Positions 9,884 through 62,788 of a stretch of DNA of 64,000 nucleotides are shown here, piece by piece (the first letter of the stretch is position 1; each line of letters begins with the position of its first letter). The position numbers and the translations under genes are program-made. The stretch covers positions 4,415,001 to 4,479,000 of the forward strand of contig NZ_CP120683.1 of assembly GCF_030506325.1 (NCBI RefSeq). Direction: 5' to 3'. The notes beneath the pieces are model-generated. The model did no database searches, had not been told where the DNA came from, and saw only the letters and a list, made by a program, of their open reading frames with translations. This stretch comes from Tunicatimonas pelagia. Lineage in GTDB: Bacteria; Bacteroidota; Bacteroidia; Cytophagales; Cyclobacteriaceae.

Positions 9884-9918
9884 GCCTAATTCTCAAAGCC
9901 TAACACCCAAAACCTACT
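9884..9918 (+). repeat. Degenerate 7-nt tandem tract in gltB-gltD spacer
   Basis: Five consecutive degenerate heptamers alternate between GCCTAAT-like and ACCCAAA-like units and occupy the spacer up to five bases before the gltD start codon. This is a weak member of the heptamer family seen elsewhere in the window. Confidence 0.4.
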
Positions 9919-9923
9919 ATACC

Positions 9924-11405
9924 ATGGGAAAACCAACTGGATTTAAACAATACAATCGTGAGTTACCTTCAACCCGCGACCCGAAGGAGCGCGTTAAAGA
10001 TTATAAGGAGTTATATCTCGATTTTGACGATAAAAAGACCAAAAAGCAGGCTGCTCGTTGTATGGACTGCGGTATTCCGTTCTGTCATAATGGCTGCCCG
10101 TTAGGCAATGTTATTCCTGAATTCAATGATGCCGTATACGAGGGAAATTGGGAGCTAGCCACTCAAATTCTGCACTCCACCAACAACTTTCCTGAATTTA
10201 CTGGCCGAATTTGCCCGGCTCCTTGTGAGGCTTCTTGTGTACTGGGCATTATTAAACCTCCGGTGGCCATTGAGCATATTGAAAAAGCAATTGCTGAGAA
10301 AGCGTTTGAGCTAGGATTAATTCAACCTCAACTACCGGAAACCCGAACGGGCAAAAAAGTAGCCGTAATTGGTTCCGGTCCGGCCGGGTTAGCTGCTGCT
10401 GCTCAACTAAACCAAGCCGGTCATTGGGTAACTTTGTTTGAGAAAGATCAGCGCATTGGCGGACTACTGCGCTACGGTATTCCTGACTTCAAAATGGAAA
10501 AGTGGGTAATTGATCGCCGACTGAAGGTAATGGAGGAAGAAGGAGTGGTTTTCAAAACCGGAGTACACGTAGGAAAAGACATTACAGCCAAGCAACTAGA
10601 AGCAGCGTTCGACGCTATTGTAGTGAGTACTGGAGCGGGAGTGCCCCGCGACTTACCCATTCCCGGGCGTGAGCTGAAGGGAGTTCATTTTGCGATGGAG
10701 TTTCTCACTCAACAGAACCAGCGGGTTTCGGGCGACCGCCTAACTGACGATTCCGACATTTGGGCAACTGATAAGCACGTAGTAGTAATTGGTGGAGGCG
10801 ATACTGGCTCCGACTGTGTAGGAACATCCAATCGCCACCAAGCTGCTTCAGTTACGCAAATAGAACTGATGCCCCAACCACCCACCGAACGAGGAGAAGA
10901 TAACCCCTGGCCGCAGTGGCCCATGATTCTACGCACTTCCTCTTCGCATGAGGAAGGAGCCGAGCGTAACTGGTCGATCATGACGAAGGAGTTTACCAGC
11001 GACGATCAGGGTAATGTAAAAGGACTTAAACTAGCCAAGCTAGAGTGGAAGGTAAACGAAGAGGGGCGACCGTATTTCGATGAAATTCCTAATAGTGAAT
11101 ACGAGATTCCTTGTGATTTGGCTCTGTTGGCCATTGGCTTTTTGCATACCGAACGGCACGGATTGCTAGAAGACTTGGGAGTGGAGCTAAATGACCGAGG
11201 CAACATCAAAGCCCAGGAGGGTGACTATCAGACTAGCAAGCCGAATGTGTTTGCTGCCGGAGATGCTCGTCGGGGTCAATCGCTAGTAGTTTGGGCCATT
11301 GCTGAAGGGCGAGAAGCGGCCCGAGCGGTAGACATTTACCTGATGGGTGAATCTAAATTGGAGGCTCGCGATGAATCTATGCTACACGTGGCAAATGCGG
11401 GCTAA
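9924..11405 (+). CDS. gltD: Glutamate synthase small subunit
   Basis: GltD (493 aa) oxidises NADPH and passes electrons through FAD and Fe-S clusters to GltB. Near residue 50 it carries the cysteine cluster CMDCGIPFCHNGCP, and a second cysteine set is in CPAPCEASC near residue 93, together forming the 4Fe-4S sites. A FAD-binding glycine motif (VIGSGPAGLAAA, near residue 150) and an NADPH motif (VVIGGGDTGSDC, near residue 290) follow. The C-terminal GDARRGQSLVVWAI segment is typical of the family. The spacing to gltB and shared orientation indicate one operon. Confidence 0.96.
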   Translation: MGKPTGFKQYNRELPSTRDPKERVKDYKELYLDFDDKKTKKQAARCMDCGIPFCHNGCPLGNVIPEFNDAVYEGNWELATQILHSTNNFPEFTGRICPAPCEASCVLGIIKPPVAIEHIEKAIAEKAFELGLIQPQLPETRTGKKVAVIGSGPAGLAAAAQLNQAGHWVTLFEKDQRIGGLLRYGIPDFKMEKWVIDRRLKVMEEEGVVFKTGVHVGKDITAKQLEAAFDAIVVSTGAGVPRDLPIPGRELKGVHFAMEFLTQQNQRVSGDRLTDDSDIWATDKHVVVIGGGDTGSDCVGTSNRHQAASVTQIELMPQPPTERGEDNPWPQWPMILRTSSSHEEGAERNWSIMTKEFTSDDQGNVKGLKLAKLEWKVNEEGRPYFDEIPNSEYEIPCDLALLAIGFLHTERHGLLEDLGVELNDRGNIKAQEGDYQTSKPNVFAAGDARRGQSLVVWAIAEGREAARAVDIYLMGESKLEARDESMLHVANAG

Positions 11406-11472
11406 CAGGTTTTTTATTTACTTTTAGTGTATCGTAATTTTTGTAAAACTATCTAATCTGTTCTATCTGATT

Positions 11473-12606
11473 ATGAAAAGCTGGTGTTTGATTCTATGTA
11501 TGGGCATGGCATCTACCTCCTATGCTCAAAATAAGGAAATATCTCGTGATTGGACATCTTTCTACCAAATTCTAGACGCTAACTTTACAGAAGAAACCAA
11601 GTTTAGACTAACTGCCTCTGTAAAGGTTGTCACCGACGATTCAACTGGGGCAGCATCCTTGTGGGCATACGTAGTAAACAAGAATGGGGAGGAAGGTTTT
11701 TTTGATAATATGTACAATCGCCCAATACAATCAGATGAGTGGTATACGTATGTGATAGAGGGTGAAGCCGATGAGAATGCCGATAAACTATATTTTGGCG
11801 GTATTTGCTTTCAGAACGGACAATTCTACTTTGATAATTTTGCACTTTATGTTGAGAATAAAGAAAAAGAAGGCGAGTTTGATCCAGTAGAAATAGAGAA
11901 TGCCAGTTTTGAGCAAAAAATTGAAAATAATCAAATTTCTGATTGGACTGAAGGCGGGTACTCAGGAGACGTTAGGGTGAAGGAGTTTACCATCTCTTCC
12001 AGCGATAGTAGCTTTCATAAAAATCAATCGCTGCTGGTAGAAGGAAAGGGAATAGAGCCGGACACAACATATATGATTGGACCAGCTAATGGTTTTAGCC
12101 CTCAAATAGGAACACTGGTAACAATGCTTAATAACTTAAGTAGCCGGGTGGAGCAGACGGTTCAACTTTTAGATCAAGAAGAGACCGACTTTCTGCTAGA
12201 TGACAAAGCCAATTCAATTGGTGCGCTAGTAATGCATCTGGCAGCGGCTGAAGCCTACTATCAGGTTTTTACCTTTGAGGGGCGAGGTTTTAATGAAGAA
12301 GAGAAAGAGAAGTGGCAAGTAGCTCTAAACCTAGGACAAAAAGTCCGAAATCAATTTAAAGGTAAAAGTATTGATTATTATTTAGGCATTTACAAAGAAG
12401 TACGTCAGAAAACAATTGAAGAACTACAGAAGCGAGATGATGCTTGGCTCAATAAAGCACAACCAGGACGCGGTACAAATAATCACTTTTCTTGGTTTCA
12501 CGTAATGGAGCATCAATCTAGTCACTTAGGGCAAATTTTGATGCTCAAGAAACGGTTTCCCGAAGAAGATGGAATGGTTCAGCAGGAAATTGATACTGAC
12601 CATTAA
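11473..12606 (+). CDS. Secreted protein with CBM-like domain and C-terminal DinB-fold domain
   Basis: The 377-aa product starts with a signal peptide ending near SYAQ (residue 19). Residues about 20-200 form a beta-rich region with repeated FDNFALYVENK / IENASFEQ signatures that look like a carbohydrate-binding jelly roll, a common pattern for secreted Bacteroidota proteins. From about residue 215 the sequence becomes helical and shows DinB/DUF664-type metal ligands: a histidine in MHLAAAE and the pair in WFHVMEHQSSHLGQ near the end. DinB-fold enzymes are metal-dependent, usually cytoplasmic thiol transferases or hydrolases, so an exported copy joined to a binding domain is unusual. The activity is unknown. 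A clear terminator follows. Confidence 0.65.
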   Translation: MKSWCLILCMGMASTSYAQNKEISRDWTSFYQILDANFTEETKFRLTASVKVVTDDSTGAASLWAYVVNKNGEEGFFDNMYNRPIQSDEWYTYVIEGEADENADKLYFGGICFQNGQFYFDNFALYVENKEKEGEFDPVEIENASFEQKIENNQISDWTEGGYSGDVRVKEFTISSSDSSFHKNQSLLVEGKGIEPDTTYMIGPANGFSPQIGTLVTMLNNLSSRVEQTVQLLDQEETDFLLDDKANSIGALVMHLAAAEAYYQVFTFEGRGFNEEEKEKWQVALNLGQKVRNQFKGKSIDYYLGIYKEVRQKTIEELQKRDDAWLNKAQPGRGTNNHFSWFHVMEHQSSHLGQILMLKKRFPEEDGMVQQEIDTDH

Positions 12607-12649
12607 AGACTCTATTAGCTAAGCAGACATAATTTAAAATATAAAAGAA

Positions 12650-12677
12650 ACGGTTGGCTACTGGCTAACCGTTTTTT
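12650..12677 (+). terminator. Rho-independent terminator
   Basis: A 9-bp stem (ACGGTTGGC pairing with GCTAACCGT, one G-T wobble) with the 5-nt loop TACTG spans 12650-12672 and runs into a T6 tract at 12672-12677. It ends the 11473-12606 transcript. Confidence 0.85.
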
Positions 12678-12766
12678 GTGTTTTACAGCGGAATCTTCAC
12701 AAAATTATAGCCTGACTTATCAGCAAAAAAACTAACTTTCTGACTTATTGGATTATTAAAGTACTC

Positions 12767-15295
12767 ATGAGATATTCTATCGGACTACTACTTTCACTAA
12801 CCACAAGCCTGTTGTTCGGTCAGATACCCACCCCAGCAGATTTTTTAGGATACGAACTAGGAAAGCGATTCACTCGCCACGCTCAGGTTATCAACTATTT
12901 TGAAAGAGTAGCAGAAACCGCAGATCAAGTATCACTGGTTACCTACGGCGAAACCTATGAGCACCGCCCGCTGGTGCTAACCTACGTAACTTCTCCCGAA
13001 AATACGGCTCAACTGGAAGCGATTCAGGCAGCTAACCTAGCCCGTGCCGGACTGCGCGAAGGTGACGATAAAGCGTTTGATAACGTGGCTATTGTGTGGC
13101 TCAGCTACAATGTACACGGAAACGAGGCGGTAGCTACTGAAGCCGCTATGCAGCTGCTGTACGAACTTAGCAGCGGAGACAACTCACAAGCGACAGAATG
13201 GCTGAAAAATACGGTAGTAATTATTGATCCCTGCATTAATCCCGATGGGCGCGACCGCTACGTGAATTGGTATAACCAAAAGGTGAATACGATTACGAAT
13301 GTCCAGCCAGATTCTTGGGAGCACGATGAGCCTTGGCCCGGAGGCCGTATGAACCACTATCTCTTCGATCTAAACCGCGACTGGGCTTGGGCAACCCAAA
13401 CAGAAACTCGCCAGCGATTAACGCTTTACAACCAATGGCTCCCGCACATTCATGCTGATTACCACGAGCAGGGCGTGAACAGTCCGTACTATTTTGCGCC
13501 TGCAGCCGAACCCTACCACGCGATTATCACCGAATGGCAGCGTGAGCTACAAACCATGATTGGGAAAAATAACGCTCGCTACTTTGATGAGGCTGGTTGG
13601 CTGTATTTTACCCGAGAGCGGTTCGATCTGCTGTACCCAAGCTACGGTGATACGTATCCTATGTTCAGTGGGGCGATTGGCATGACCTATGAGCAAGGTG
13701 GTTCGGGACGAGCGGGTTTGGCAGTGCTTACCGAAGAGGGCGATACCCTCACTTTAAAAGATCGTATCGCTCATCACGTGACCACGAGCCTGTCTACCAT
13801 TGAAGTGGCTTCACAAAATGCCGAACGTATTGTGCGGGAGTTCTCAGATTTTTATCAGCAATCGCAGCAAGGTAAGATTGGAAACTACCAGAGCTATGTG
13901 GTGAAGGACAGTAATCCCGAAAAAATAGCAGCATTACGCTCGTTGCTGGACACCCACGAAATTCAGTACGGTGAAAGCACTACTTCGCGCAATTTGTCAG
14001 GGTTTAGCTATCAGCAGAATGGAGAGCGTGATTTTCGAGTAGAGCAAGGTGATTTGATTATTTCTACTAGTCAACCCAAGTCAGTACTACTGCAAACACT
14101 CTTTGAGCCAGAGGCGGAACTAACCGATTCTATCACCTACGATATTACGGCTTGGACCATTCCCTACGCCTACGACTTGGATGCTTATGCGCTGACGGCT
14201 GATATTAATTCTGCTCAAGAATTTCCCGAAGCTACTTTTACTCCCCAGTCGGTAGAAGAACCAGCCTACGCTTACGTGAGTAAGTGGGACGGCGTTCAAG
14301 ATGCTCGATTTCTGTCTCAACTTATTCGGCAGGGTATTAAAGTCCGCTATTCCGCGCGCGATTTTTCGGTTGCTGGTCAAGCCTTTGATGCCGGAACCCT
14401 CATTATTACTCGAGCCAATAATCAAGCATTAGGTGAGGAGTTTGATCAAAAGGTTGTATTGCTCGCCAACAGTTTGCAACAGGAAGTTACTCCGATTCGG
14501 ACAGGCTACGTAGAAAGTGGTTTTGATCTGGGGTCAGGTGAAATTCACTACATAGAACCACCTAAAGTGCTACTGGCGGCTGGCGAAGATGTATCGCCCT
14601 ACGGACTAGGGGAAATATGGTATTTCTTTGAACAAGAGATTACGTATCCAGTATCGGTGATTAATGCGGAAAGTCTAAAAGAAGCGGATCTGTCAGATTA
14701 TAATACACTGATTTTACCCGATGGACGCTACGCTCAAATACTAGAAAATATTGATTTAAAGAATTGGATTCAGCAGGGTGGAAAGGTAATTGCCCTGGAA
14801 AGTGCGCTAACCTCTTTTAAGAGAAAAGAAGAATACCAACTATCAGAGTATTCTAGCATTCAGGAGAAAGATAGATTAGAGCAACAGGGAGATGCTTACC
14901 AAGCGCAACACCAACTTTCACCCTACGAAGATCAGGAGCGTCGTAACATAAGCAACTATATCTCCGGCAGTATTTTTAAATTACGGCTTGACAACACCCA
15001 CCCACTCGGTTTGGGTTACCCTGAGCACTACTTCACACTTAAGCGGGGGAGCAGTCGCTACGGCTACCTTGAGGAGGGAGAAAATGTGGCGACACTAGAA
15101 AGCATGGCAGCTCCAATAAGCGGGTTTGCCGGAGCCGAAATTCAGAAGAGGCTCCCCAACTCGCTGATCTTTGGCGTAGAAGAAGTGGGAGATGGCACTA
15201 TAGTTTACCTAGTTGATAACCCACTGTTCCGGGCTTTTTGGCAAAATGGAAAACTGCTGTTCAGTAATGCATTGTTTCTGGTGGGGCAGGATTAA
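12767..15295 (+). CDS. Secreted M14-family zinc carboxypeptidase
   Basis: The 842-aa product has a signal peptide (cleavage probably after FGQ, residue 19) and a catalytic M14 domain over roughly residues 25-350. The first zinc ligands are His117 and Glu120 in NVHGNEAV, and the third is in the HADYHEQG segment near residue 230. The glutamate of MTYEQGGSGRAG near residue 308 is the likely catalytic residue. The C-terminal half (about 400-840) contains a glutamine-amidotransferase-like region common in this large Bacteroidota subgroup. It probably trims peptides in the periplasm or at the cell surface. It sits between a terminator and a convergent esterase gene, so it appears monocistronic. Confidence 0.9.
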   Translation: MRYSIGLLLSLTTSLLFGQIPTPADFLGYELGKRFTRHAQVINYFERVAETADQVSLVTYGETYEHRPLVLTYVTSPENTAQLEAIQAANLARAGLREGDDKAFDNVAIVWLSYNVHGNEAVATEAAMQLLYELSSGDNSQATEWLKNTVVIIDPCINPDGRDRYVNWYNQKVNTITNVQPDSWEHDEPWPGGRMNHYLFDLNRDWAWATQTETRQRLTLYNQWLPHIHADYHEQGVNSPYYFAPAAEPYHAIITEWQRELQTMIGKNNARYFDEAGWLYFTRERFDLLYPSYGDTYPMFSGAIGMTYEQGGSGRAGLAVLTEEGDTLTLKDRIAHHVTTSLSTIEVASQNAERIVREFSDFYQQSQQGKIGNYQSYVVKDSNPEKIAALRSLLDTHEIQYGESTTSRNLSGFSYQQNGERDFRVEQGDLIISTSQPKSVLLQTLFEPEAELTDSITYDITAWTIPYAYDLDAYALTADINSAQEFPEATFTPQSVEEPAYAYVSKWDGVQDARFLSQLIRQGIKVRYSARDFSVAGQAFDAGTLIITRANNQALGEEFDQKVVLLANSLQQEVTPIRTGYVESGFDLGSGEIHYIEPPKVLLAAGEDVSPYGLGEIWYFFEQEITYPVSVINAESLKEADLSDYNTLILPDGRYAQILENIDLKNWIQQGGKVIALESALTSFKRKEEYQLSEYSSIQEKDRLEQQGDAYQAQHQLSPYEDQERRNISNYISGSIFKLRLDNTHPLGLGYPEHYFTLKRGSSRYGYLEEGENVATLESMAAPISGFAGAEIQKRLPNSLIFGVEEVGDGTIVYLVDNPLFRAFWQNGKLLFSNALFLVGQD

Positions 15296-15305
15296 ACCTT
15301 ATCTC

Positions 15306-16190
15306 CTACGGATTTGACACCAGCAGCCCTCGCTCTAGCATCCAGGCTTCGCAGAGCTCAGGCCAAGCAGAGAATGCTGAGTAGCGACTGCCCATGCCTA
15401 AGCCATGACGGCCTTTCTCAAATACGTGTAACTCCGCTGGAATATTGTTCTCTCGCAGGGCTAAATAAAAGTAAATACTATTTTCCGGAGGTACTCCGGT
15501 ATCTTCGTTGGTATGTACTAGGAAGGTCGGTGGCGTATCGGCTTTCACCTGCCGTTCGTTAGAAAGAGAAGCAATTAACTCAGCATCTGCGTTATCCCCC
15601 AATAGCGACCGTCGGGAACCCGCATGCTGATAATCTTCGGTAAAAGAAATTACCGGATATAGTAGAACCATAAAATCGGGGCGGCTGCTTTGCTGTTCAA
15701 TCATATTGTTGGCACTGGCATCTCCGGCATCAAAGTGCGTACCAAGGGTAGAGGCCATATGCCCTCCGGCAGAAAAGCCCAGTACGCCAATTCGGTTGGG
15801 GTCAATACTCCATTTTTCGGCATGAGCCCGTACGGTACGAATAGCTCGTTTGCCATCGTTCATCGGGATAGGATGCTTATAGCCATTTTTTCCTAAACGG
15901 TAGGTCAGAATATAGGCTGAGACTCCAAAAGAATTGAGCCACTTAGCAATCTGGTGCCCTTCATGATCCATCGCTAACATGTTGTAACCACCACCGGGAC
16001 AGACTACTACAGCGGCTCCAGTAGCTATTTCTTCAGGGGCTGGATAGCGAATGAGCGAGGGCTGATCTTTTGCTTCAGATCCGGTAGCTCCGGGAGCACT
16101 GTCGGACCACAGTTGCAAGGTATCCGGGGTAGATTGGGCGAAGGCATTTATGAGCATGAAGCAGCTTAGCAGAGTAAGAATAAGTTTCAT
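15306..16190 (-). CDS. Secreted alpha/beta-hydrolase, acetyl-esterase type
   Basis: The product is 294 aa with a signal peptide ending near AFAQ (residue 19). It has the oxyanion-hole motif CPGGGYNMLA (residues 64-73) and the nucleophile elbow GFSAGG with Ser140, followed by an aspartate in HTNEDTGVP and a histidine in KGRHGLG that complete the triad. This is the BD-FAE / xylan-esterase-like group common in polysaccharide utilisation. It probably removes acyl groups from plant or algal polysaccharide in the periplasm. The next minus-strand gene upstream is the apionate-lactonase-like gene, 55 bases away, so they likely form one operon concerned with plant cell-wall sugars. Confidence 0.85.
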   Translation of the reverse strand: MKLILTLLSCFMLINAFAQSTPDTLQLWSDSAPGATGSEAKDQPSLIRYPAPEEIATGAAVVVCPGGGYNMLAMDHEGHQIAKWLNSFGVSAYILTYRLGKNGYKHPIPMNDGKRAIRTVRAHAEKWSIDPNRIGVLGFSAGGHMASTLGTHFDAGDASANNMIEQQSSRPDFMVLLYPVISFTEDYQHAGSRRSLLGDNADAELIASLSNERQVKADTPPTFLVHTNEDTGVPPENSIYFYLALRENNIPAELHVFEKGRHGLGMGSRYSAFSAWPELCEAWMLERGLLVSNP

Positions 16191-16245
16191 CTAATAGGTT
16201 GTTTAAGGTAGTGTTTCAAGTACAACAGCAAATTTTTGCGGTATT

Positions 16246-18162
16246 TTACTTAGTAGTTTCTGTTGAGGTTAAAAATACTAAAGCATACGGAGGCAGTGAG
16301 ATAGTATTATGGCATTTCTTGTAATCAGTCGCTAAAAACTCTTCGGGTTGCTGAGTGGCTACCTCAAAACTTGTTTCGTCTAGTAGTTTCATTCGGGTAA
16401 ATAAATTTTTGGAAAGTTCTACATCCACTGCTTTGGGCTGAAGGTTCGCCAAAATAGCGCGGAACTCATTGCCACTGCGAAACGCTAGCACTTCTATCTG
16501 CCATGGGTTGCTCACCGTAGTCGGCAGTACCAAACAGTTTTCTCTTTCCAGTAAAAACCGAAATACTAAATACATTGAATAGACGGCACCCGGTTGGGCA
16601 GGAAATAACTCAGAAGAAGCCGTTACTTTGCTTAAAATACCTTTACGTCCAACAGTCTCGAAGTAAGTGATCGCCTCCGCGCCAGCCTGAATTAAATTAC
16701 GTAAACTCCCCACTGTCCATCCCGCTCCAAATAAAGATAGTTGACGAGTGTCTACAGATGGTGGTAAAGCATCAGAGGCAGGCAGCGAAGTGGCATCGGT
16801 AGCGTTAGGGTTACGTCGCATCTTTAGCGTAATCGGAGATACTCTAATCGGAATGTTTTTGGCAAACTGCTTAGCACTGGCTATGGTATAAGCCTGAGCT
16901 TGCAGAGTTTCTACCAGTGATTGATTGTCGAAGTGATGCACTTGTGGATTGATCGAGTATGACAGGAAGTCCAGGTTGTCGGCTGATAACCGTTCCCGGT
17001 TCAATTCGGTAAAGAAATGATCGGTGCCGCTGCCGATTTTTGTAGTAGGGAAGTGCTGACGAAGCTTAGGTAGTACCTGATTAAGTATTTCTTGTGAAGT
17101 AACTTTACGCGACTGCTCAAAAATAAGAATGGCATCAATGGTGGCTGCCGTAGCTATTTCCACAAACTCTGAGATTTGCTCTGGAACGTCAATGTGAAGA
17201 GCTACCTCTAACGGCCATTTTAATGTACCTGCTTTAGCCACTGCCCGTCGCCATTTCTTCGGCCAATCAGGGTTGTACAACTGAAGATCTATCCGGTAGT
17301 GGTCAAAAGGTACTGCTTTTAGCAAATCAATATCCCGAGAGGCTAAGTCTTCAATCTCCGTTGATTGTCCGATGCCGATAGCAGGCAGTGGAATAAGCGT
17401 TTCTGATAGCGTGAAGTGCAATGGTTGCTTATCAACAATGATGCTGGGGAAAGTTTGTTCCAATCGTAGTACTACTTCCTGACGAATTTTCTCTCCGGTT
17501 TGTACCGTAACCGGAAAAGGTAAATCCAGTGGAGTACAGTAGGTTTTAAATGAATCATCTGTCCAGTTACGCTGGTCTTCCATCTCGAAAACATCTCCGG
17601 TAAACTCTAGCGAAGCAGTGATTTTATCAGCAGGTGACCACTGCATCTGGCGAATATTTCTGAACGGTTGATGAGGGCTGATGTTGGCAGGAAATCGCCC
17701 CTCAGATTTTGTGCCACCAGCGTGTTCAATTTGGCAAGCAGCTCCGGCTACACTGGCCGGATGTAATACGCAAAATCCTATCCGGTTGCGCTGAAAAGTG
17801 CTGAGTACTTCACCAGACATTGTAAAGCGTACGCTGCCGTCGGCGTTGCCTTGAATAGCGTACTGGGCTAAAAAATCAATCTCACCCTGTTGATAGCGGC
17901 AGGTATAAGTAACCGTGAAATGGTTATTATGATTTATAATCTTTTCCTGACTGATTACTGGGGCAATCGTATCCCAATTATGATCGCGCACCGCTGAGTA
18001 AATCATGCGTATTATTTCCGCATCGCCTATTCTGATGTACCGCAAATTTCCTTCTTCGTACTGGCACCCAACCTTACCTGCTACCAGTTCAACCGCCGTG
18101 GGAGGACGATGGGCTGCGCCGCCGTAATACATTACTTCTTGTAGCGAAGAAAAATAATACAT
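16246..18162 (-). CDS. D-apionate lactonase-like protein
   Basis: The 638-aa product has no signal peptide. Its N-terminal beta-rich part contains RYIRIGDAEIIRMIYSAVRD and, further on, STFQRNRIGFCVLHP and GRFPANISPHQPF, all of which I associate with the D-apionate lactonase (ApnL) family. A middle segment looks like a TIM barrel (about residues 270-520) and a small beta domain ends the protein. ApnL opens D-apionolactone in the catabolism of apiose, the branched sugar of rhamnogalacturonan II and of apiogalacturonan in aquatic plants. The neighbouring esterase fits that theme. No other apiose genes are visible, so the substrate is inferred from family memory only. Confidence 0.6.
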   Translation of the reverse strand: MYYFSSLQEVMYYGGAAHRPPTAVELVAGKVGCQYEEGNLRYIRIGDAEIIRMIYSAVRDHNWDTIAPVISQEKIINHNNHFTVTYTCRYQQGEIDFLAQYAIQGNADGSVRFTMSGEVLSTFQRNRIGFCVLHPASVAGAACQIEHAGGTKSEGRFPANISPHQPFRNIRQMQWSPADKITASLEFTGDVFEMEDQRNWTDDSFKTYCTPLDLPFPVTVQTGEKIRQEVVLRLEQTFPSIIVDKQPLHFTLSETLIPLPAIGIGQSTEIEDLASRDIDLLKAVPFDHYRIDLQLYNPDWPKKWRRAVAKAGTLKWPLEVALHIDVPEQISEFVEIATAATIDAILIFEQSRKVTSQEILNQVLPKLRQHFPTTKIGSGTDHFFTELNRERLSADNLDFLSYSINPQVHHFDNQSLVETLQAQAYTIASAKQFAKNIPIRVSPITLKMRRNPNATDATSLPASDALPPSVDTRQLSLFGAGWTVGSLRNLIQAGAEAITYFETVGRKGILSKVTASSELFPAQPGAVYSMYLVFRFLLERENCLVLPTTVSNPWQIEVLAFRSGNEFRAILANLQPKAVDVELSKNLFTRMKLLDETSFEVATQQPEEFLATDYKKCHNTISLPPYALVFLTSTETTK

Positions 18163-18476
18163 AGCCTCGAAAGGTTGTTGTCAGTGGTAACTTACAAAAT
18201 TTTGAGAAATTACGACCTACCTGACTCATTGCTTTTTGTCAGGCTTTCTAGCATTCAAACGGGGGAGAGAAATAACGGAAATAAAAAAAGTACCTATGAG
18301 AAATCGTAAGTGCTTAGTGGTTCGGAGATATGCTTAGCCATACCAATCATGAGGTGGCGGCTAATCTGAGCTGTAGATCATGAGAACATAAGCACTCTGA
18401 TGGTGTGATGCTGTCCTAAGACGCTCGTCCGAAGCTACTTAAAGAAACAAATATTCCTACGGCTCCTCTTTCACAT
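18163..18476. other. Intergenic region upstream of the apionate-lactonase-like gene
   Basis: This 314-base region lies between the start of the minus-strand lactonase-like gene and the end of hemN. The only structure I see is a perfect 6-bp inverted repeat CCTGAC...GTCAGG at 18220-18243 with a 12-nt loop. No coding potential is evident. Confidence 0.5.
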
Positions 18477-19874
18477 TTAAATAGTACTGCTAAACAAGTT
18501 AGTTTCGGGCCGTCGGCGCCATAGGCGAGCATCTAGCGACATACAGACGTTGCGGACGAAGGGTTTGCCTTCGGGAAGTACCAGGATGGTACCCTCGCCT
18601 AACTTCACCAAACCATCGCGCTCCATCTCCAGCAGGCGTTGCACACCTTGTTGAAGTACTTCCTGTTCAGCGCACTGCCGGTTCCACTGGGTACGGCCCC
18701 GGCACATCAGGTTGAGAATATGTTCACGCAACTGCAAATCTTCATCGGTCAGTACGTGGCCCCGCTGTACCGCCAGTGATTCTTTGGTGGATGCGATATA
18801 GGCCTCAACGATTTTAGCGTTCTGCCCGAAGGCTGTCCAGGTGTCGCTAATCGCTGAAGCACCCAGTCCAATGAGCAGGCGCGTAGCTTGGGTGGTGTAG
18901 CCCATAAAGTTGCGATGTAGTCTACCCGCTTGACTAGCTTGGCTTAGCGCATCGGTATCTAGCGCGAAGTGATCCATACCAATTTCCCGATAGTTGGCCG
19001 TTTGTAGCGTCTGTTTGCCCTGCTCGTATAGTTGTCGTTTCACGTCGGAGGAGGGCAAGTAGGGTTCCAGCGACCGTTGGGCGGGTTTCATCCAAGGCAC
19101 GTGGGCGTAGCTGTAGAAGGCGATTCGGTCGGGCTGAATCTGTAAGGTTTTCTCGATCGTGTCCTGTACCGTCTCGATCGTTTGCTTGGGCAAGCCATAG
19201 ATCAGATCAAAGTTTACTGATGTAAAACCAATGTGTCGAGCTAGGGTCACCACCTGCTCTACCTGCTGGTAGGTTTGCCGTCGGTTGATGATTTGTTGCA
19301 CCTCCGGACCAAAATCTTGGATACCCAAGCTCAGCCGTCGGAAGCCCAGATCGTAGAGTGTCTGGAGATGTTGCGCGCTAGTACTGTTAGGATGAGCCTC
19401 CAAACTTAGTTCGGTCTTCTCATCCACTTGTCCGCTTTGCAGAATACTTAGTATGAGTTTACGTAGGTTCAACGGGCTGAAAAAGGTAGGAGTACCTCCG
19501 CCCAAGTGCAGCTCCCGAATAAGGGGCGGCTCGCCCAGCAGATCGCGGTACTGCTTCCATTCGCGCAATAGGGCTTCAATGTAGGGTGCCTCTACTCGGT
19601 GATTCACGGTGATGCGCGTAGTACAGCCGCAGTAGGTACATAGACTTTCGCAAAATGGCAAGTGTATGTACAGGCTGATACCTCGCTGCCGGGTTTTTTG
19701 GTAGGTCTGCTGCACCTGGGTGCGCCAGATTGCTTTGCTCGGCGGAGTTTCGTCCCAATAGGGCACGGTGGGGTAGCTGGTATAGCGGGGTCCCGGTACG
19801 TTGTATTTTCTGATTAGTTCTTGGTTCAATGGTTCAATGGTTCGATTGTTTTTTAGTCCATAGTCCGCAGTCAT
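18477..19874 (-). CDS. hemN: Oxygen-independent coproporphyrinogen III oxidase
   Basis: HemN is a radical-SAM enzyme that decarboxylates coproporphyrinogen III for haem synthesis under low oxygen. The 465-aa product has the N-terminal PGPRYTSYPT motif (residues 27-36) and the iron-sulfur signature CESLCTYCGC (Cys75, Cys79, Cys82, Cys84), both diagnostic of HemN. It closes the cbb3 oxidase operon, where haem supply and microaerobic respiration are logically linked. The start codon is embedded in a 7-nt repeat tract, and codons for about residues 11-18 consist of an 8-nt direct repeat. Homology to HemN probably begins at about residue 20, so the first 19 residues may be a recent addition or the true start may be a later non-ATG codon. 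Confidence 0.92.
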   Translation of the reverse strand: MTADYGLKNNRTIEPLNQELIRKYNVPGPRYTSYPTVPYWDETPPSKAIWRTQVQQTYQKTRQRGISLYIHLPFCESLCTYCGCTTRITVNHRVEAPYIEALLREWKQYRDLLGEPPLIRELHLGGGTPTFFSPLNLRKLILSILQSGQVDEKTELSLEAHPNSTSAQHLQTLYDLGFRRLSLGIQDFGPEVQQIINRRQTYQQVEQVVTLARHIGFTSVNFDLIYGLPKQTIETVQDTIEKTLQIQPDRIAFYSYAHVPWMKPAQRSLEPYLPSSDVKRQLYEQGKQTLQTANYREIGMDHFALDTDALSQASQAGRLHRNFMGYTTQATRLLIGLGASAISDTWTAFGQNAKIVEAYIASTKESLAVQRGHVLTDEDLQLREHILNLMCRGRTQWNRQCAEQEVLQQGVQRLLEMERDGLVKLGEGTILVLPEGKPFVRNVCMSLDARLWRRRPETNLFSSTI

Positions 19875-19905
19875 TACTCATTATTCATCAATCATTATCC
19901 ATTAT
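19871..19905 (-). repeat. Heptamer tract filling the safE-hemN spacer
   Basis: Five units of a degenerate TCATTAT heptamer (plus-strand reading) run without a break from the hemN start codon to the stop codon of the upstream gene. The entire spacer is therefore repeat, and the hemN start codon lies inside the first unit. Confidence 0.65.
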
Positions 19906-20612
19906 CAACGGCAGATGGTAATTATTTCACCTACGGTCATTTCTCCGGCTAGTACTGGGCTAACGTAGGGGATGTCGAGGGATAGGCCGCGTAGAATGAA
20001 TAATATTCCTACAGCACTTACTAGCACGGGTACCGCTTTCCTCACTTTGTTGCGCAGTGGCACGCTGATCCACTGGCCTAAAAAGCTGACCCCTAGCATC
20101 ATTGGTAATGTGCCTAGCCCAAAAGCAGCCATATACACGGCACCTTCGGTGGCGTAACCCGTGGCAATAGCGCCCGCCAAACCAACGTAAACTAAACCGC
20201 AGGGCAACAGGCCATTCAAGGTGCCTAGCCCAAACATAGCAGGGTAGGTGCGAACAGCAAATAACCGCTGCATTGATTTTTTTACCCGCCCAATCATTCG
20301 GGCGATGTAGTGATTCGGGCTTACTCGAAGTAGTAGCGTAGTGGGTAATGCTACGCCCAAAACAATCAGTATGCCTAACGCCACCGAAAGGGTTTGTTGC
20401 AAACCGGCCATCGCTAGGCTCTGTCCTAATAATCCGAATAGTCCACCGAGGAAAGCGTAGGTAGTGATGCGTCCTAAATTATACGCTAACCGGCCTAACC
20501 AGCGACGCAGACTTGCCTGATCTCGAACGGGTAAGGCTAGCGCAATGGGGCCACACATACCGAGACAGTGAAAGCTTCCTAATAATCCGATGGCGAAGGC
20601 GGTGACAATCAT
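19905..20612 (-). CDS. Sulfite exporter TauE/SafE-family membrane protein of the cco operon
   Basis: This about 235-aa polytopic membrane protein has roughly six hydrophobic helices and the conserved opening GLLGSFHCLGMCGPIALALP, typical of the TauE/SafE-like proteins that follow ccoH in Bacteroidota cbb3 operons. The FHCxxMCGP motif, with two cysteines in the first helix, suggests metal (copper) transport into the oxidase assembly pathway rather than sulfite export, a role discussed for CcoS/CcoI/CcoH neighbours. A longer reading from 20666 is possible, but ATG 20612 is preferred because it overlaps the ccoH stop by one base (TAATG), the usual sign of translational coupling. Confidence 0.85.
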   Translation of the reverse strand: MIVTAFAIGLLGSFHCLGMCGPIALALPVRDQASLRRWLGRLAYNLGRITTYAFLGGLFGLLGQSLAMAGLQQTLSVALGILIVLGVALPTTLLLRVSPNHYIARMIGRVKKSMQRLFAVRTYPAMFGLGTLNGLLPCGLVYVGLAGAIATGYATEGAVYMAAFGLGTLPMMLGVSFLGQWISVPLRNKVRKAVPVLVSAVGILFILRGLSLDIPYVSPVLAGEMTVGEIITICR

Positions 20613-21046
20613 TACTGAATAAAAATAGATTCTTCGGTGAAGTAGGCCGCATCGCCACTTACCCAATCAACCTTGACCTTATAATAGCCTTTAGCTAGTT
20701 TATTCGTTGGAATAATCTGCTGCTGATCTGAATTTAGGGCGATCGCTACGGTGCGATCGTTTCGCATATCGGAAGGGCAGAATAGTTGAATGTTCCCTTC
20801 TACGTTAGCCGTTAGATCATCGGGAAACTGCACCACCAATTGTTGAGCCTGCTGAGCAAAAGTAAGCGGTGAGTCAAGGGACTGGCTATTAGCAATTTTA
20901 TCAATTCGCTCTTGGTACCCTAACTCCTGCTGATAGTAATCTTCCGATACCAAGTCAATCGTTTGCTGAAAGCTACGAAATACCAGCACCCCGATAAAGA
21001 TACCGAACAGACTAAATGCCACTACTATTTTCCATCCCCAGTTCAT
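20612..21046 (-). CDS. ccoH: FixH/CcoH family cbb3 oxidase assembly protein
   Basis: The 144-aa protein has one N-terminal membrane helix (about residues 4-24) and a periplasmic domain with the SEDYYQQELGYQERIDK segment typical of FixH. CcoH associates with the cbb3 oxidase and helps its maturation. It overlaps the next gene by one base and follows ccoG in the usual order. The 68-base gap between ccoG and ccoH is occupied by a strong hairpin built from heptamer repeats, which could lower downstream expression. Confidence 0.85.
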   Translation of the reverse strand: MNWGWKIVVAFSLFGIFIGVLVFRSFQQTIDLVSEDYYQQELGYQERIDKIANSQSLDSPLTFAQQAQQLVVQFPDDLTANVEGNIQLFCPSDMRNDRTVAIALNSDQQQIIPTNKLAKGYYKVKVDWVSGDAAYFTEESIFIQ

Positions 21047-21053
21047 ACCTTTA

Positions 21054-21120
21054 TTATTTGATGATTAATGATTGATGAGTAATGATTAATTAGATGAGAA
21101 TTAATCATTACTCATTATTG
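21054..21120 (-). repeat. Heptamer tract with perfect 17-bp hairpin between ccoG and ccoH
   Basis: The gap holds degenerate ATTAATG/ATTGATG-type heptamers. Two halves are head-to-head and give a perfect inverted repeat: ATGAGTAATGATTAATT at 21075-21091 pairs with 21099-21115, with a 7-nt loop. The 3' arm reaches the ccoG stop codon. No T-run follows on the minus strand, so RNA processing or partial attenuation is more likely than full termination. Confidence 0.8.
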
Positions 21121-22533: not shown

Positions 22534-22539
22534 ATTTTT

Positions 22540-22577
22540 AGCGGGGTTCTGGGGGCAAGGGGCAGGGTGTTCTGCTC
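22540..22577. repeat. G-rich degenerate heptamer tract between ccoP and ccoG
   Basis: Four to five 7-nt units resembling GGCAGGG and TTCTGGG lie in the 47-base spacer. It shows the same 7-nt period as the other tracts in the operon but a different unit sequence. Confidence 0.4.
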
Positions 22578-22580
22578 CCT

Positions 22581-23492
22581 TTAGTTTAAGGCCAACTCTT
22601 CGTCTCGTTCGTACGGCTCGCCCTGAGGTTCTTTGGCATTCGGTGGCTCAGTGCCCTCCAGGGTAATAATGTAGCTAGATAAATCTTGCATCTCCACGGG
22701 ACTCAACTGCGACTTCCAGGGAATCATACCTTTTTCTGGTACCCCATTCTTGATTATTCTGAAAATATCTTTCACGTCACCTCCGTGAATCCAGTAGGTA
22801 TCAGTGAGATTGGGACCAACCCCGCCTTCGCCCGCCATACCGTGACAAGCCGAGCATTTTTGGGCGAACATTTTCTGTGCAGCATCCAGTCGGCCGGCAT
22901 CACTGATGAAGGTTACATTAGTTTCATCTACACTGTTGCCCGCGGTGGCTAGGTAAGCGTCTACTTCTAGTTTAGCCTGCGCCATCTCCTGCTCATATTC
23001 CTCCTCCTGAAACGAGCCTAAACTAAATACGTGGAAGTAGAGCAGGTACACTACGGCAAATACAATGGTAACGTAAAACATGGCCTTCCACCAGGGCGGT
23101 AGGTTGTTGTCTAGTTCGTAGATACCGTCGTACTCGTGGGTAGTCATCACCTCCGCTTCCCGCTCAATCGGTACCGCATCGTTTACTTGGGTTAAAAACT
23201 TCTGATACCAAGGTTTGTCCGGTTCTACTAATTCACCACTCGGACTTACTTTCGAAGTAGGGAACAGTACATTGCTCATCATTTTGATGACTACCAATAA
23301 AATAACCACCACTATGAGTAGTACCACCTCCAGTCCCATCAGTCCCCAGACAATGTACTGCTCAATGTTGCTCATGCCCATGTTTGAAGCAGGAGCAGCC
23401 TCCTGAGCAGTAGCGATTACGGGCAAGAAAGGAAGCAATGCTCCAATTAGCCAGGGTAGTATTCTTTTACGATGGTTGATAAAACGCTTCAT
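22581..23492 (-). CDS. ccoP: cbb3-type cytochrome c oxidase subunit III (single haem)
   Basis: CcoP takes electrons from soluble cytochromes and passes them to CcoO. The 303-aa product has a probable signal sequence or first helix (residues 10-28), a second hydrophobic helix (about 45-72), a third (about 137-157) and one periplasmic cytochrome c domain. Only one haem-binding motif is present, CSACH at about residues 212-216, with the distal methionine probably in GMIPW. Proteobacterial CcoP normally has two haems, so this is the reduced form reported for Bacteroidota. Its start overlaps the ccoQ stop by four bases. Confidence 0.92.
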   Translation of the reverse strand: MKRFINHRKRILPWLIGALLPFLPVIATAQEAAPASNMGMSNIEQYIVWGLMGLEVVLLIVVVILLVVIKMMSNVLFPTSKVSPSGELVEPDKPWYQKFLTQVNDAVPIEREAEVMTTHEYDGIYELDNNLPPWWKAMFYVTIVFAVVYLLYFHVFSLGSFQEEEYEQEMAQAKLEVDAYLATAGNSVDETNVTFISDAGRLDAAQKMFAQKCSACHGMAGEGGVGPNLTDTYWIHGGDVKDIFRIIKNGVPEKGMIPWKSQLSPVEMQDLSSYIITLEGTEPPNAKEPQGEPYERDEELALN

Positions 23493-23677
23493 AGTGAGTC
23501 GGTCTGAGGTTCTTGGTCGAGAGGAAGTTGTTCTACTTCGGCAATGTATTCCTTACTAGAGCGGAATACCCAAATGAGCAGCACAACAAAGAAAGCAAAG
23601 AAGATAAGAAACGAGATCAGCGGAAAAATCTCAATCCCGGTAATCGTTTCCATATGGTGTTTAATGAATTTGAGCAT
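23489..23677 (-). CDS. ccoQ: Small cbb3 oxidase subunit CcoQ-like
   Basis: This 62-aa protein has a single membrane helix (about residues 16-38) followed by a short charged tail containing RSSKEYIAEVEQLPLD. Its size, topology and position between ccoNO and ccoP mark it as CcoQ, which stabilises the oxidase complex. A start at the internal methionine (residue 9) is equally possible. It overlaps ccoP by four bases. Confidence 0.8.
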   Translation of the reverse strand: MLKFIKHHMETITGIEIFPLISFLIFFAFFVVLLIWVFRSSKEYIAEVEQLPLDQEPQTDSL

Positions 23678-23682: not shown

Positions 23683-23773
23683 TAATGATTGATGACTAAT
23701 GATTGACGATTGATGAGTAATGACTGTTAGCTTAGTGGTTCATTAATCATTACTCACTATTCATCAGTCATTA
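23683..23773 (-). repeat. Head-to-head heptamer tract between ccoNO and ccoQ
   Basis: Thirteen consecutive 7-nt units stay in one register across the whole spacer and into the ccoNO stop codon. The first six are of the TAATGAT/TGATGAC type and the last five are their reverse complements (ATCATTA/TTCATCA type), so the transcript can fold into a long hairpin between the two cistrons. Confidence 0.75.
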
Positions 23774-44294: not shown

Positions 44295-44367
<73 letters not shown>

Positions 44368-44468
44368 ATTTCAAGATTGAAAGCTAGAGGTCAAAATGAT
44401 AGTAGATTTTTTTTGATTATGCTTCCTAGTATCATCCAATACGATACTCGAGTTCCTTAATTTCGGAT

Positions 44469-44508
44469 TCCGGTTTCCCGTCTCCGGTCTCCATAAAAAG
44501 TTTTTTTC
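44469..44508 (+). terminator. Inverted heptamer tract plus T-run, terminator-like
   Basis: Bases 44469-44492 contain about three units of the reverse complement of the GGAGACC repeat (for example GTCTCCGGTCTCC at 44480-44492). The RNA can form a stem of 13 perfect pairs with any of several registers of the upstream tract. AAAAAG and a T7 run follow. It looks like a slippable intrinsic terminator, though the loop of about 115 bases is long. Confidence 0.5.
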
Positions 44509-44995: not shown

Positions 44996-45023
44996 TTCAT
45001 TATCCACTATCCATTTTCAATTA
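44996..45023 (+). repeat. Degenerate heptamer tract before the DUF4132 gene
   Basis: Four consecutive units of the TTCATTA/TCCATTT type sit just before an A9 run and the start codon of the DUF4132 gene. Confidence 0.5.
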
Positions 45024-53497: not shown

Positions 53498-53514
53498 GAG
53501 CGCGGAAGTTTGGA

Positions 53515-53598
53515 AACAATGAGCGACAGACAGTTGAGAACTGACAACTGAAAGTGGATAGTGACCAATGTCTAATTCATAGTACCCAATTCCAATGA
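53515..53598. repeat. Degenerate 12-unit heptamer tract
   Basis: Twelve 7-nt units keep one register across the spacer between the dehydrogenase and the next (minus-strand) gene; typical units are GACAACT, GAGAACT and GATAGTG. Sequence is poorly conserved between units, but the period is clear. Confidence 0.5.
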
Positions 53599-53615
53599 CC
53601 AGCGAATATTTAGCT

Positions 53616-61434: not shown

Positions 61435-61459
61435 AAAAAGCGAATTTTTAACTCTATCG

Positions 61460-61487
61460 TACATTGTTCATTGCGAACTGTTCATTA
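61460..61487. repeat. Heptamer tract upstream of trpB
   Basis: Four 7-nt units of the TTCATTG/TTCATTA type. On the opposite strand they read AATGAAC-like, related to the AATGAGC-type units of the tract after trpB, so the two tracts flank trpB in inverted orientation. Confidence 0.55.
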
Positions 61488-61529
61488 TAAAAACGTTTTC
61501 GTAAATTTCAGGCTTAACTCAGAGGACTT

Positions 61530-62738
61530 ATGAACGAGGTACAAGAACAGACAAAAACACTATTTCAAGTAAGCGATAATGGCTACTACGGCCAGTTTGG
61601 TGGAGCGTTTATTCCCGAAATGCTGCATCCGAATATCGAGGAGTTACGGGAAAACTATCTGGCCATTACACGAAGCGAAGAATTTCAGCAGGAATTTCAG
61701 CAGTTACTGAAAGATTTCGTAGGTCGACCAACCCCACTCTATTTTGCGGAGCGGCTTTCACAAGAATACGGGGCAAATATCTATTTAAAACGGGAGGATT
61801 TATGCCATACCGGAGCGCATAAAGTCAATAATACTATTGGGCAAATACTTTTAGCCAAGCGGCTGAATAAGAAGTACATCATTGCCGAAACCGGAGCGGG
61901 ACAGCATGGTGTAGCCACGGCTACCGTTTGTGCCCTGATGGGGATGGAGTGCAAAGTATTTATGGGGGCACTAGATACTGAACGACAAAAACCCAACGTA
62001 GAGCGTATGCGGATTCTGGGTGCCGAAGTGGTTCCTGCCCACAGTGGTAGCAAAACGCTGAAGGATGCCACCAACGAAGCCATGCGTCACTGGATTAATA
62101 ACCCCATTGATAGCCACTATATTATTGGTTCAGTTGTTGGTCCCCACCCCTACCCCGACATGGTAACTCGCTTCCAATCGGTCATTAGTGAGGAAACCAA
62201 GTGGCAACTCAAAGAAAAAACGGGATCGGAAGACCCGGATTACGTGGTAGCCTGTGTAGGTGGAGGCAGCAATGCAGCCGGGGCATATTACCATTATCTA
62301 GATCGACCTAATGTTGAACTGATTGCGGTAGAAGCGGGCGGATTAGGAGTTGCTTCAGGAAGGTCAGCCGCTACCACTGCGCTGGGGAAAGCCGGTATTT
62401 TGCACGGCAGCCGCTCGCTGGTGATGCAAACCGAAGACGGTCAGGTGGTAGAACCGCACTCTATATCGGCCGGACTGGATTACCCGGGCATTGGTCCGCT
62501 ACACGCTCACTTGTTTGATAGCGGACGAGCTAAATTCTACAGTGTAACCGACGATGAAGCTATGCAAGCGGGTATTCAACTCAGCCGACTGGAAGGCATT
62601 ATTCCGGCTATCGAAACGGCTCACGCCATCAGCGTTCTTGCCCAAATGGATCTAAAATCCAGCGATGTAGTTATTATCAATCTATCGGGTCGGGGTGACA
62701 AAGATTTGGAAACCTACATTAAGTGGGGAAAATATTAG
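61530..62738 (+). CDS. trpB: Tryptophan synthase beta subunit
   Basis: TrpB (402 aa) joins indole and serine to make tryptophan with PLP. The PLP lysine is Lys98 in [10 protein letters not shown], the phosphate-binding loop is [10 protein letters not shown] near residue 240, and [11 protein letters not shown] near residue 22 marks the start of the catalytic domain. It is a canonical TrpB1. No trpA or other trp gene is next to it, which is unusual because trpB and trpA normally neighbour each other. The gene is bracketed by related heptamer tracts. Confidence 0.96.
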
Positions 62739-62739
62739 G

Positions 62740-62788
62740 TTCAATGAGCAATGAGCAATGAGCAGATTGCAGTGAACAATTGAGCAGT
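62740..62788 (+). repeat. Heptamer tract downstream of trpB
   Basis: Seven 7-nt units start within the trpB stop codon region; the first three are nearly exact AGCAATG/TTCAATG units and the rest diverge. The 7-nt period is exact in the first three units. Confidence 0.7.

Follow-up and report, generated by a model that had tools for sequence, protein, structure and literature searches.

The STRR sequences of cyanobacteria are described as direct tandem repeats with few unit types. The REP/BIME palindromes, which are intergenic hairpins like the cassettes described here, are associated with a RAYT transposase; a conserved sequence or tag marks the REPs, which are not known to have a heptad period. 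The closest precedent for the present tracts is the P6b stem-loop of the trnL intron in Nostoc and Calothrix, which is built of Class I (TDNGATT) or Class II (NNTGAGT) heptads, gains and loses single units, and has repeatedly had one class swapped for the other in place with the structure remaining similar (PMC4476775). Intergenic TAACTGA heptads were described in Beggiatoaceae, cyanobacteria and five Bacteroidetes, and the indels between two Cyanothece strains were mostly of 7 nt (MacGregor 2015, PMC4679880). The same paper quotes Mrazek 2007 for heptamers as the commonest unit of long simple sequence repeats in most genomes, and for the proposal that they arise by slippage, perhaps via a 7-nt polymerase contact (PMC4679880). 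With these two heptad systems in print, the statement of the first-pass annotation that it was aware of no matching description was too strong.

The window analysed here is a stretch of 64,000 nt from Tunicatimonas pelagia, and the source of its heptad tracts is a member of the Bacteroidota, not a cyanobacterium. The tracts consisted of tandem units exactly 7 nt in length, of several types and dispersed in intergenic spaces, as in the STRR/heptanucleotide repeats. As in P6b, the arms were composed of 7-nt units and their complements, with unit gain and loss and class replacement in place. The P6b hairpin is a single locus of cyanobacteria with two classes, whereas in this genome two complementary heptad arms were found outside any group I intron P6b loop, at many junctions between protein genes, with nine named dialects and with the arm order counted genome-wide. 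The likeness to the TAACTGA repeats lies in the intergenic position, often beside start or stop codons, the species specificity and the mixing with other heptamers. That family is, however, described as one unit in direct repeats (with one indirect repeat in BOGUAY), mostly forward and just upstream of the start (PMC4679880), unlike the inverted arm pairs, fixed arm order and dialect exchange observed here. The TAACTGA direct-repeat unit was absent from the listed tracts, in which TRRTGAN was commonest and related TAACTGC/AACTGAC tracts also occurred.

Ten intergenic spans with a 7-nt period had been proposed in the window, and in all ten lag 7 was the highest of lags 4-10 and exceeded dinucleotide shuffles of the span (1000 each). 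The p-values, which are flattering because the spans had been picked by the earlier reader, were below 0.001 for the spans starting at 19871, 21054, 23683, 44295, 44996, 53515 and 62740, and were 0.009, 0.031 and 0.041 for those at 61460, 9884 and 22540. Scanning programs run blind recovered five of the ten (19871, 21054, 23683, 44295 and 62740). The reverse complementarity between left and right halves, which had been claimed for several tracts, was clear on DNA folding in two (21047-21114, z -8.6; 23675-23780, z -3.0), weaker in 22534-22580 (z -2.2), 62739-62830 (z -1.8) and 53498-53615 (z -1.75), and absent in 44966-45033 (z +0.5) and 61435-61529 (z +0.8). The region 9851-9923 gave z -1.15 folded as DNA and -2.9 as RNA; the span first reported there, 9884-9918, is the 3' arm of a longer hairpin (Table 1). 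Tracts were frequent in the cbb3 gene cluster, in which CcoG, CcoP, a fused CcoN/O and HemN were identified and the intervening 253-aa and 144-aa genes had no NCBIfam match; the single operon to which four tracts had been assigned is suggested by strand and spacing.

Table 1. Heptad tracts of the window and the corresponding sites in related genomes (G001, G002, G003, G015).
Feature	Position	Strand	Location and remarks	Site in relatives
TTGGGAN/CCTAANN-type hairpin	9854..9920	+	Spacer from gene ending 9850 to glutamate synthase small subunit gene (9924)	Same dialect in G001 and G003 (by eye)
TRRTGAN single arm	19871..19905	-	Between 253-aa gene (stop at 19905) and hemN	12 nt in G003; 3 nt in G015; CAATGAN-like array in G002
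TRRTGAN hairpin cassette	21054..21120	-	Between ccoG and 144-aa gene; ccoG stop (21115-21117) within arm	CAATGAN-like in G001 and G002
G-rich/C-rich heptad spacer	22534..22580	-	Between ccoP and ccoG	11 nt in G003
TRRTGAN hairpin cassette	23683..23773	-	At ccoN/O stop; stop codon within arm	GGGATTN-like in G001, GGGGNGC-like in G002 (by eye)
(GGAGACC)10.4, homogeneous 5' arm, perfect copies	44295..44367	+	Directly 3' of called gene 43404-44294	Short degenerate GGAAACC arm in G003
Degenerate 3' partner arm of 44295 array	44459..44492	+	About 100 nt downstream; can pair with 44295	
TCCAYTATC-like array	44996..45023	+	5' of gene 45034; lag 7 p < 0.001; no hairpin	Similar array in G003
Mosaic CAATGAN/AACTGAN heptads	53515..53598	.	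Between called convergent genes ending 53497 and 53616; weak fold	
TTCATTG-type array	61460..61487	+	Upstream of trpB (61530); no hairpin	
CAATGAG array	62740..62788	+	Directly after trpB stop	

The heptad period extended beyond the window. In a sample of 2.06 of 7.29 Mb (28% of the genome; crude ORF-based gene calls, 5 shuffles, binomial z), intergenic DNA gave z values of 21.2, 15.2 and 17.7 at lags 7, 14 and 21, above the shuffles and above lags 6 (3.2) and 8 (9.0), which was the check set in the first-pass annotation. Lags 3 (z 24.2) and 4 (z 13.3) were likewise raised, and in coding DNA the values were 0.2467 for lag 7 and 0.2458 for lag 8, without shuffling. The proposed dispersed family with varied unit sequence was borne out by 53 intergenic lag-7 tracts of several unit types, compared with 6 in coding DNA and 0.3 in shuffled spacers. 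Seventy-four co-directional stems lacking the main dialect, ordinary terminators among them, also showed the period, with 0.346, 0.366 and 0.332 at lags 7, 14 and 21 and 0.265-0.320 at other lags. This genome and those of its relatives yielded nine named dialects, and dialects could grade into one another inside a single tract.

Heptad hairpin cassettes, each comprising a 7-nt array, a loop and an inverted array, accounted for 38 of the 66 clusters of the commonest dialect, TRRTGAN. In many gene gaps a fold-back of imperfect heptads takes up the space, often reaching from the stop signal to the edge of the next gene; of 49 cassettes, 25 (co-directional 15/33, convergent 10/16) had both edges within 22 nt of the neighbouring start or stop codons. 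Non-stop TGG units were fewer than expected (10 versus 17.1, p 0.03), a small deficit that hints at selection for stop codons. The order of the arms, on which the first-pass annotation was silent, as it was on the placement at stops and starts and on the dialect change at orthologous junctions, was absolute for the main dialect: TRRTGA preceded TCAYYA ('><') at 203 places in four congeneric genomes (registers overlapping; 106 in this genome, 21 in G001, 21 in G002 and 55 in G003), and the reverse order ('<>') occurred at none. With at most one mismatch the ratio of '><' to '<>' for TRRTGAN was 40:0 in the sample of this genome and 14:0 at the loci of relatives. The rarer dialects GAGTTCN, GGGGNGC, GGGTANA, GGGATTN, AGTCCAN and CAATGAN gave 4, 4, 5, 5, 3 and 2 '><' cases in this genome and relatives together, with no '<>' listed for these few cases in the one-mismatch scan. 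Counted exceptions came from CAATKNN, the loosest unit at one mismatch (51:11 in this genome's sample, 10:3 in relatives); the wrong-order cases displayed were short or chance-like. A two-mismatch scan, too loose for R-degenerate units, gave 64:38 for TRRTGAN, 18:6 for CARTGAN, 16:11 for CARTTAN and 0:4 for AACTGNT in the sample, and 21:14, 11:2 and 7:3 for the first three in relatives. Both arm orders were held by 2 of the 66 clusters, which were complex. A purine-rich 5' arm is not put forward as a general rule, with 15/19 in the main dialect and 20 versus 7 in convergent stems, and only 42 versus 32 in other co-directional stems.

The arm order fixed within dialects, the abundance of the TRRTGA '><' pattern in only this genus among the genomes searched (9 others of 148 order members had 1 to 6 places), and the presence or absence of whole cassettes, such as at L058 junction 12, where this genome has 20 nt and G001 has 139 nt with palindromic ends, are consistent with a REP/MITE-like mobile hairpin, each dialect being a lineage of copied cassettes put at gene ends by a trans-acting transposase. 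Such an origin is unlikely, since arm lengths and loops were variable, no similarity was found among the 33 loops that were 12 nt or longer, dialects intergraded within one tract and no target duplication was noticed at the cassettes by eye. With several dialects and unrelated loops, the cassettes lacked the conserved palindrome sequence or tag of REP/BIME elements.

Hairpins selected in the mRNA, serving operon punctuation, 3'-end protection or translational coupling between a stop and the next start, would agree with the codon-hugging edges, with arms that stay complementary through dialect change, and with a higher frequency of fold excess (z < -3) among co-directional (11% of 606) and convergent (19% of 150) than among divergent spacers (4% of 171), ordinary terminators included. 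Nevertheless, an RNA role, raised by the earlier reader, was not borne out for the dialect tested and seems rather doubtful overall. In co-directional cassettes the sense strand carried 61 G.T and 71 A.C oppositions (p 0.43), and among 36 elements the own arms barely surpassed swapped arms (duplex energy p 0.046, ungapped score p 0.15); an earlier run of only 13 elements had leaned to own arms (-19.3 versus -16.7 permuted, sd 1.0). The G.T/A.C symmetry and the weak arm-swap result point to the DNA rather than the RNA level. Furthermore, the cassette was absent from the same junction in some relatives, and several tracts of the window were single arms without a hairpin. Terminator-like sites in window positions 9000-27000 showed no excess (20 versus 16.6 in shuffles, sd 5.4). 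The cbb3-cluster tracts carried two of these sites (21073 and 22559), both antisense to the genes, and no stem followed by a sense-strand T-run was found on these tracts in that range, the rest being judged by eye. A strand test is needed before such hairpins are taken for RNA regulators.

At orthologous junctions the relatives had the same dialect, a different dialect in both arms, or none, the dialects being assigned partly by eye; the wording of the repeat often differs between related species at one place, with repeat length and layout kept. At equal protein identity, the alignment z was lower for cassette spacers than for other spacers (median 4.9 versus 10.6, p 0.008; 17 versus 21 pairs, labelled by eye), and 5 of the 21 non-cassette spacers also aligned poorly. 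Some cassettes were highly conserved, an example being L063 junction 4, 92% identical between this genome and G001. Arrays also changed in length between relatives, as in the 10-copy GGAGACC array (Table 1), which agrees with the earlier suggestion of replication slippage as one source. Arrayed binding sites of a protein recognising 7-bp units would suit the constant core positions and free seventh base of the main dialect, a constancy partly built in because unit selection allowed no more than one mismatch in every two units, as well as the symmetry at the DNA level; the nine differing dialects and the switching of dialect at orthologous sites make this reading highly improbable.

We give an even chance to the reading in which the tracts belong with the STRR/TAACTGA type of heptad repeats, act at the level of DNA, are arranged in hairpin cassettes and are tolerated at gene junctions. 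An array of one 7-nt dialect would grow and shrink by replication slippage, as suggested by homogeneous expansion and by length change between relatives, and template switching or fold-back in replication would be the most probable source of the inverted copy next to it. The arm pair would then drift one unit at a time, with exact pairing between the arms not maintained, as seen for one dialect, and the cassette may now and then be lost or swapped for another dialect, a pattern observed by eye at orthologous junctions. Cassettes may persist between a stop and the next start or stop because arrays elsewhere break genes and a 7-nt period breaks frames. The data are explicable without any selected function. 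Slippage alone leaves the fixed polarity unexplained, and the joint dialect change of both arms needs either whole replacement or strong arm-to-arm copying, the latter being weak in the dialect tested. The deficit of TGG units, the well-conserved cassettes and the poorly aligning non-cassette spacers likewise count against this reading. A self-renewing element defined by its form, in which a polar pair of 7-nt arrays has the vocabulary of both arms rewritten at once by a dedicated 7-nt-step activity (a polymerase, a reverse transcriptase or a fold-back repair route) common to distant phyla, appears quite improbable; the sharing is suggested because heptads of similar wording (CAATGAN, GGGATTN-like, TRRTGA/NNTGAGT) were met again in other Bacteroidota and are published for Nostoc.

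Compared with the precedents, the many junctions, the fixed polarity and the dialect change in both arms are new. Replacement of a heptad class, hitherto reported from one Nostoc intron, now appears at junction after junction in one genus, and such many-junction replacement with fixed order makes the question of why seven predominates in bacterial long repeats testable by strain comparison. A strand or replichore bias, suggested among the matches listed, was rejected on the whole counts (303 forward versus 339 reverse) and on block sampling, in which the two orientations occurred next to each other, many tracts being palindromic. An all-versus-all blastn of the spacers also revealed larger dispersed repeats with heptads inside.

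In all ten intergenic tracts that the first-pass annotation had picked for a 7-nt period, and that were then tested against dinucleotide shuffles, lag 7 exceeded the other lags from 4 to 10 and lay above the shuffles, seven tracts at p < 0.001 and the remaining three at 0.009, 0.031, and 0.041. Blind repeat programs recovered five of the ten. The autocorrelation that the first-pass annotation had proposed as a check extended the period beyond the window (C1:4415001-4479000), in a sample made up of the window and 100 evenly spaced 20-kb stretches (2.064 Mb in total, or 28% of a genome of 7.29 Mb in four contigs). With rough gene calls, in which the longest ORFs of 80 aa or more were taken without overlap, the 238 kb of intergenic DNA showed a lag-7 identity of 0.2876 against 0.2686 when shuffled (five shuffles; binomial z 21.2), with lags 14 and 21 raised (z 15.2 and 17.7) and lags 6 and 8 weaker (z 3.2 and 9.0); lags 3 and 4 were likewise raised (z 24.2 and 13.3). 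In coding DNA, lag 7 (0.2467) was close to lag 8 (0.2458). A local tract finder located 53 intergenic and 6 coding tracts at lag 7, where shuffled spacers gave 0.3. The corresponding numbers were 38 and 7 for lag 14 and 12 and 1 for lag 8, and no more than two intergenic tracts appeared at any of lags 6 and 9-12. The 8-nt period formed a minor class, present in the window and in 12 intergenic tracts of the sample; one example, TGGTTCAA x 2.8, adjoins the 19871 tract. A dispersed repeat of about 190-300 bp, about 80% identical between copies, was also observed, which includes GGAGACC or other heptad arrays.

The commonest unit was TRRTGAN. In 469 units from 54 cassettes (array, loop, and inverted array), the positions held T 391; A 311 or G 146; A 401 or G 55; T 445; G 424; and A 421, with the seventh free, a constancy partly imposed by the unit search itself. 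The 66 TRRTGAN clusters with at least three matches in the sample comprised 36 with a forward array followed by an inverted one, 28 single arms, and 2 complex cases, and none with the plain reversed order. Genome-wide, exact gap-limited TRRTGA patterns, which count overlapping registers of one cassette repeatedly, found the forward-then-inverted order at 106 places in T. pelagia and at 21, 21, and 55 in the same-genus genomes G001, G002, and G003, and the reversed order at none in these four. The median arm of TRRTGA cassettes was about four units, and the loop ranged from -3 (overlapping) to 67 nt. The same form occurred in the dialects CAATGAN, GGGGNGC, GGGTANA, GGGATTN, GAGTTCN, GTGTTAN, AGTCCAN, and GGAGACC, with GTGTTAN and GGAGACC standing outside the plain count by dialect. 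Stems without the main dialect retained the signal at lags 7, 14, and 21.

Comparison within the genus (CcoG identity 92% in G001, 78% in G003, and 72% in G002) showed that conservation in place held only in part: some junctions kept the dialect, and others carried another dialect or no tract. Neighbouring tblastn matches defined the orthologous junctions (one set of 52 lines; a second, differently filtered set of 76 pairs over 52 junctions). With dialects classed by eye wherever one or more of the genomes had a heptad cassette, the dialect was the same at 4, different at 4, in one genome only at 1, and unclear at 1 of 10 junctions with G001, and the same at 9, different at 6, and in one genome only at 5 of 20 with G003. 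Downstream of ccoN/O, TRRTGA of T. pelagia corresponded to GGGATTN-like arms in G001 and GGGGNGC-like arms in G002; at junctions 5 and 6 of locus L062, TRRTGA and CAATGAN-like cassettes corresponded to GGGGNGC-like ones in G003; and at junction 4 of L063 a CAATTAG-like dialect was common to all three genomes, 92% identical between T. pelagia and G001. Slippage-type expansion was also observed, and the 44295 site held 10.4 perfect GGAGACC units in T. pelagia and one or two degenerate GGAAACC units in G003. Cassette-labelled spacers aligned worse than others (median z 4.9 in 17 pairs vs 10.6 in 21; Mann-Whitney p 0.008) in pairs of limited length, labelled by us, with a mean protein identity of 87% in both groups; alignment was likewise poor (z < 5) in 5 of the 21 non-cassette pairs, and one cassette pair reached z 21.8.

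In our reading the tracts belong to a known class of heptad repeat (STRR, TAACTGA repeats) and differ from it in being specially arranged. MacGregor 2015 (PMC4679880) describes TAACTGA repeats as direct repeats, indels at them between two Cyanothece strains as mostly 7 nt, and mixed heptamers in Bacteroidetes. The cyanobacterial parallel is one of repeat type, not of kinship. In the same paper, repeats between stop codons in a small Microcystis sample are reported to share one chromosomal orientation throughout; this is a question separate from arm order, and orientation is balanced in T. pelagia. According to Kaasalainen 2015 (PMC4476775), the Nostoc trnL P6b hairpin is built from either of two heptad motifs, and Class I has repeatedly replaced Class II; PMC4692102 deals with a heptameric G-quadruplex repeat of Xanthomonas and Nostoc, and PMC3733652 with REPs. 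Literature searches, mostly outside subscription journals, turned up no description of heptad hairpins across a genome in which dialects replace one another at orthologous sites. The second arm would arise by fold-back or template switching, and the dialect would change by replacement of the whole cassette. The fixed polarity is the point worst explained by the heptad-repeat account; it would follow if the cassettes of a dialect all descend from one ancestor, or alternatively if the mechanism always starts from one side.

In 22 of 33 co-directional TRRTGA cassettes (sample plus relatives' loci), the upstream arm edge and the upstream stop codon were at most 20 nt apart; 15 of these edges were at offset -3 or -10, positions at which the array itself supplies the stop codon as one of its TRR triplets. 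The final A of the array doubled as the first base of the next called ATG (offset -1) in 8 of the 33. The closeness to stop codons is partly automatic, because any frame entering a TRRTGA array terminates there, but the gene ends of tandem paralogues (...NE-stop) looked conserved by eye with other dialects behind them, which counts against a merely automatic placement. These paralogues, about 2.4 kb each, have their own cassettes between them, of differing dialects in L062. Cassettes with both edges no more than 22 nt from a codon made up 15 of the 33 co-directional and 10 of the 16 convergent ones; divergent spacers held 4 of 54 cassettes. Fold z fell below -3, ordinary terminators included, in 11% of co-directional (n = 606), 19% of convergent (n = 150), and 4% of divergent spacers (n = 171). 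Junction placement may reflect tolerance rather than function. The called hemN start falls within heptads, seemingly continuing into TGCGGAC TATGGAC, and the true start may lie further downstream.

The RNA-level role first suggested gained no backing from the TRRTGA dialect, the one so analyzed. A selected transcript hairpin should tolerate sense G opposite T and refuse A opposite C. Oppositions in co-directional cassettes, taken in a purine/pyrimidine-symmetric register, were 572 Watson-Crick, 61 G.T, 71 A.C, and 47 of other types (p 0.43 by binomial test), and those in convergent ones 267, 27, 26, and 28. Own arms paired only slightly better than swapped arms in 36 cassettes, with p 0.046 for duplex energy (-20.9 vs -19.9) and p 0.15 for the ungapped score, so that arms are nearly interchangeable within the dialect; the transcript is thus unmarked as the level of selection. 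Terminator-like sites in window 9000-27000 showed no excess (20 vs 16.6, sd 5.4, in shuffles), and the two on cbb3-cluster tracts were both on the antisense strand. Some palindromes of other order members, such as those in G138, G110, and G147, have exactly matched arms, which would be in keeping with inverted copying in the recent past.

In the loci fetched for comparison, intergenic z at lag 7 was 9.6, 6.1, and 4.8 in G003, G001, and G002, and 2.3, 1.3, and -0.2 in G016, G015, and Flexithrix outside the genus, with few bases each. Tracts in relatives' loci (0.53 Mb) numbered 12 at lag 7, 2 at lag 6, and 1 at lag 8. Pooling 80 named loci gave z 8.8, yet lags 3, 6, 9, 12, and 15 were equal or higher; these loci (1.42 Mb) held 14 tracts at lag 7 against 9 and 11 at lags 8 and 9, a slight heptad excess outside the genus. 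Of 148 genomes searched in the order, 10 carried forward-then-inverted TRRTGA (T. pelagia 106 places, nine others 1-6) and 12 a CAATGAN-like pattern (T. pelagia 1 place; maximum 9). The window encodes fused CcoN/O, CcoG, and CcoP; the nearest CcoG among the matches listed for named genomes, where very close records may be missing, was 66% identical (Flexithrix dorotheae). These genes and the genomes bearing the nearest CcoG point to Bacteroidota and, by our reading, to the order Cytophagales. By our gene reading, some of the 14 tracts lie directly 3' of ccoG (Tamlana, Christiangramia) or further along the same cluster before another gene (Aequorivita, Sphingobacteriales), and the ccoG cluster may thus be a favoured heptad host. 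In the order member G069, a well-conserved short palindrome, CAATGAACAATG..CATTGTTCATTG, accounted for 8 of 9 CAATGAN-like places and looked like an ordinary REP-type family.

Coordinates of heptad-associated features in T. pelagia and other genomes
Feature	Locus or contig	Position	Remark
Heptad tract near ccoG	L146	4087-4151	Sphingobacteriales; other dialect
Heptad tract near ccoG	L166	11932-11986	Aequorivita; other dialect
Heptad tract near ccoG	L172	11417-11441	Tamlana; other dialect
Heptad tract near ccoG	L179	11434-11466	Christiangramia; other dialect
Dispersed repeat copy	L086	2842-3542	
Dispersed repeat copy	L075	5843-6222	
Dispersed repeat copy	L020	17782-18219	
Dispersed repeat copy	L090	1742-3138	
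Dispersed repeat copy	L099	1873-2361	
Tandem paralogues with cassettes	L087	7293-9924	own genome 6167294-6169925
Tandem paralogues with cassettes	L062	7811-13210	own genome 4277812-4283211
8-nt-period tract	window	19822-19843	
Called hemN start	window	19850-19874	
Palindrome, example	G069 C7	111822-111875
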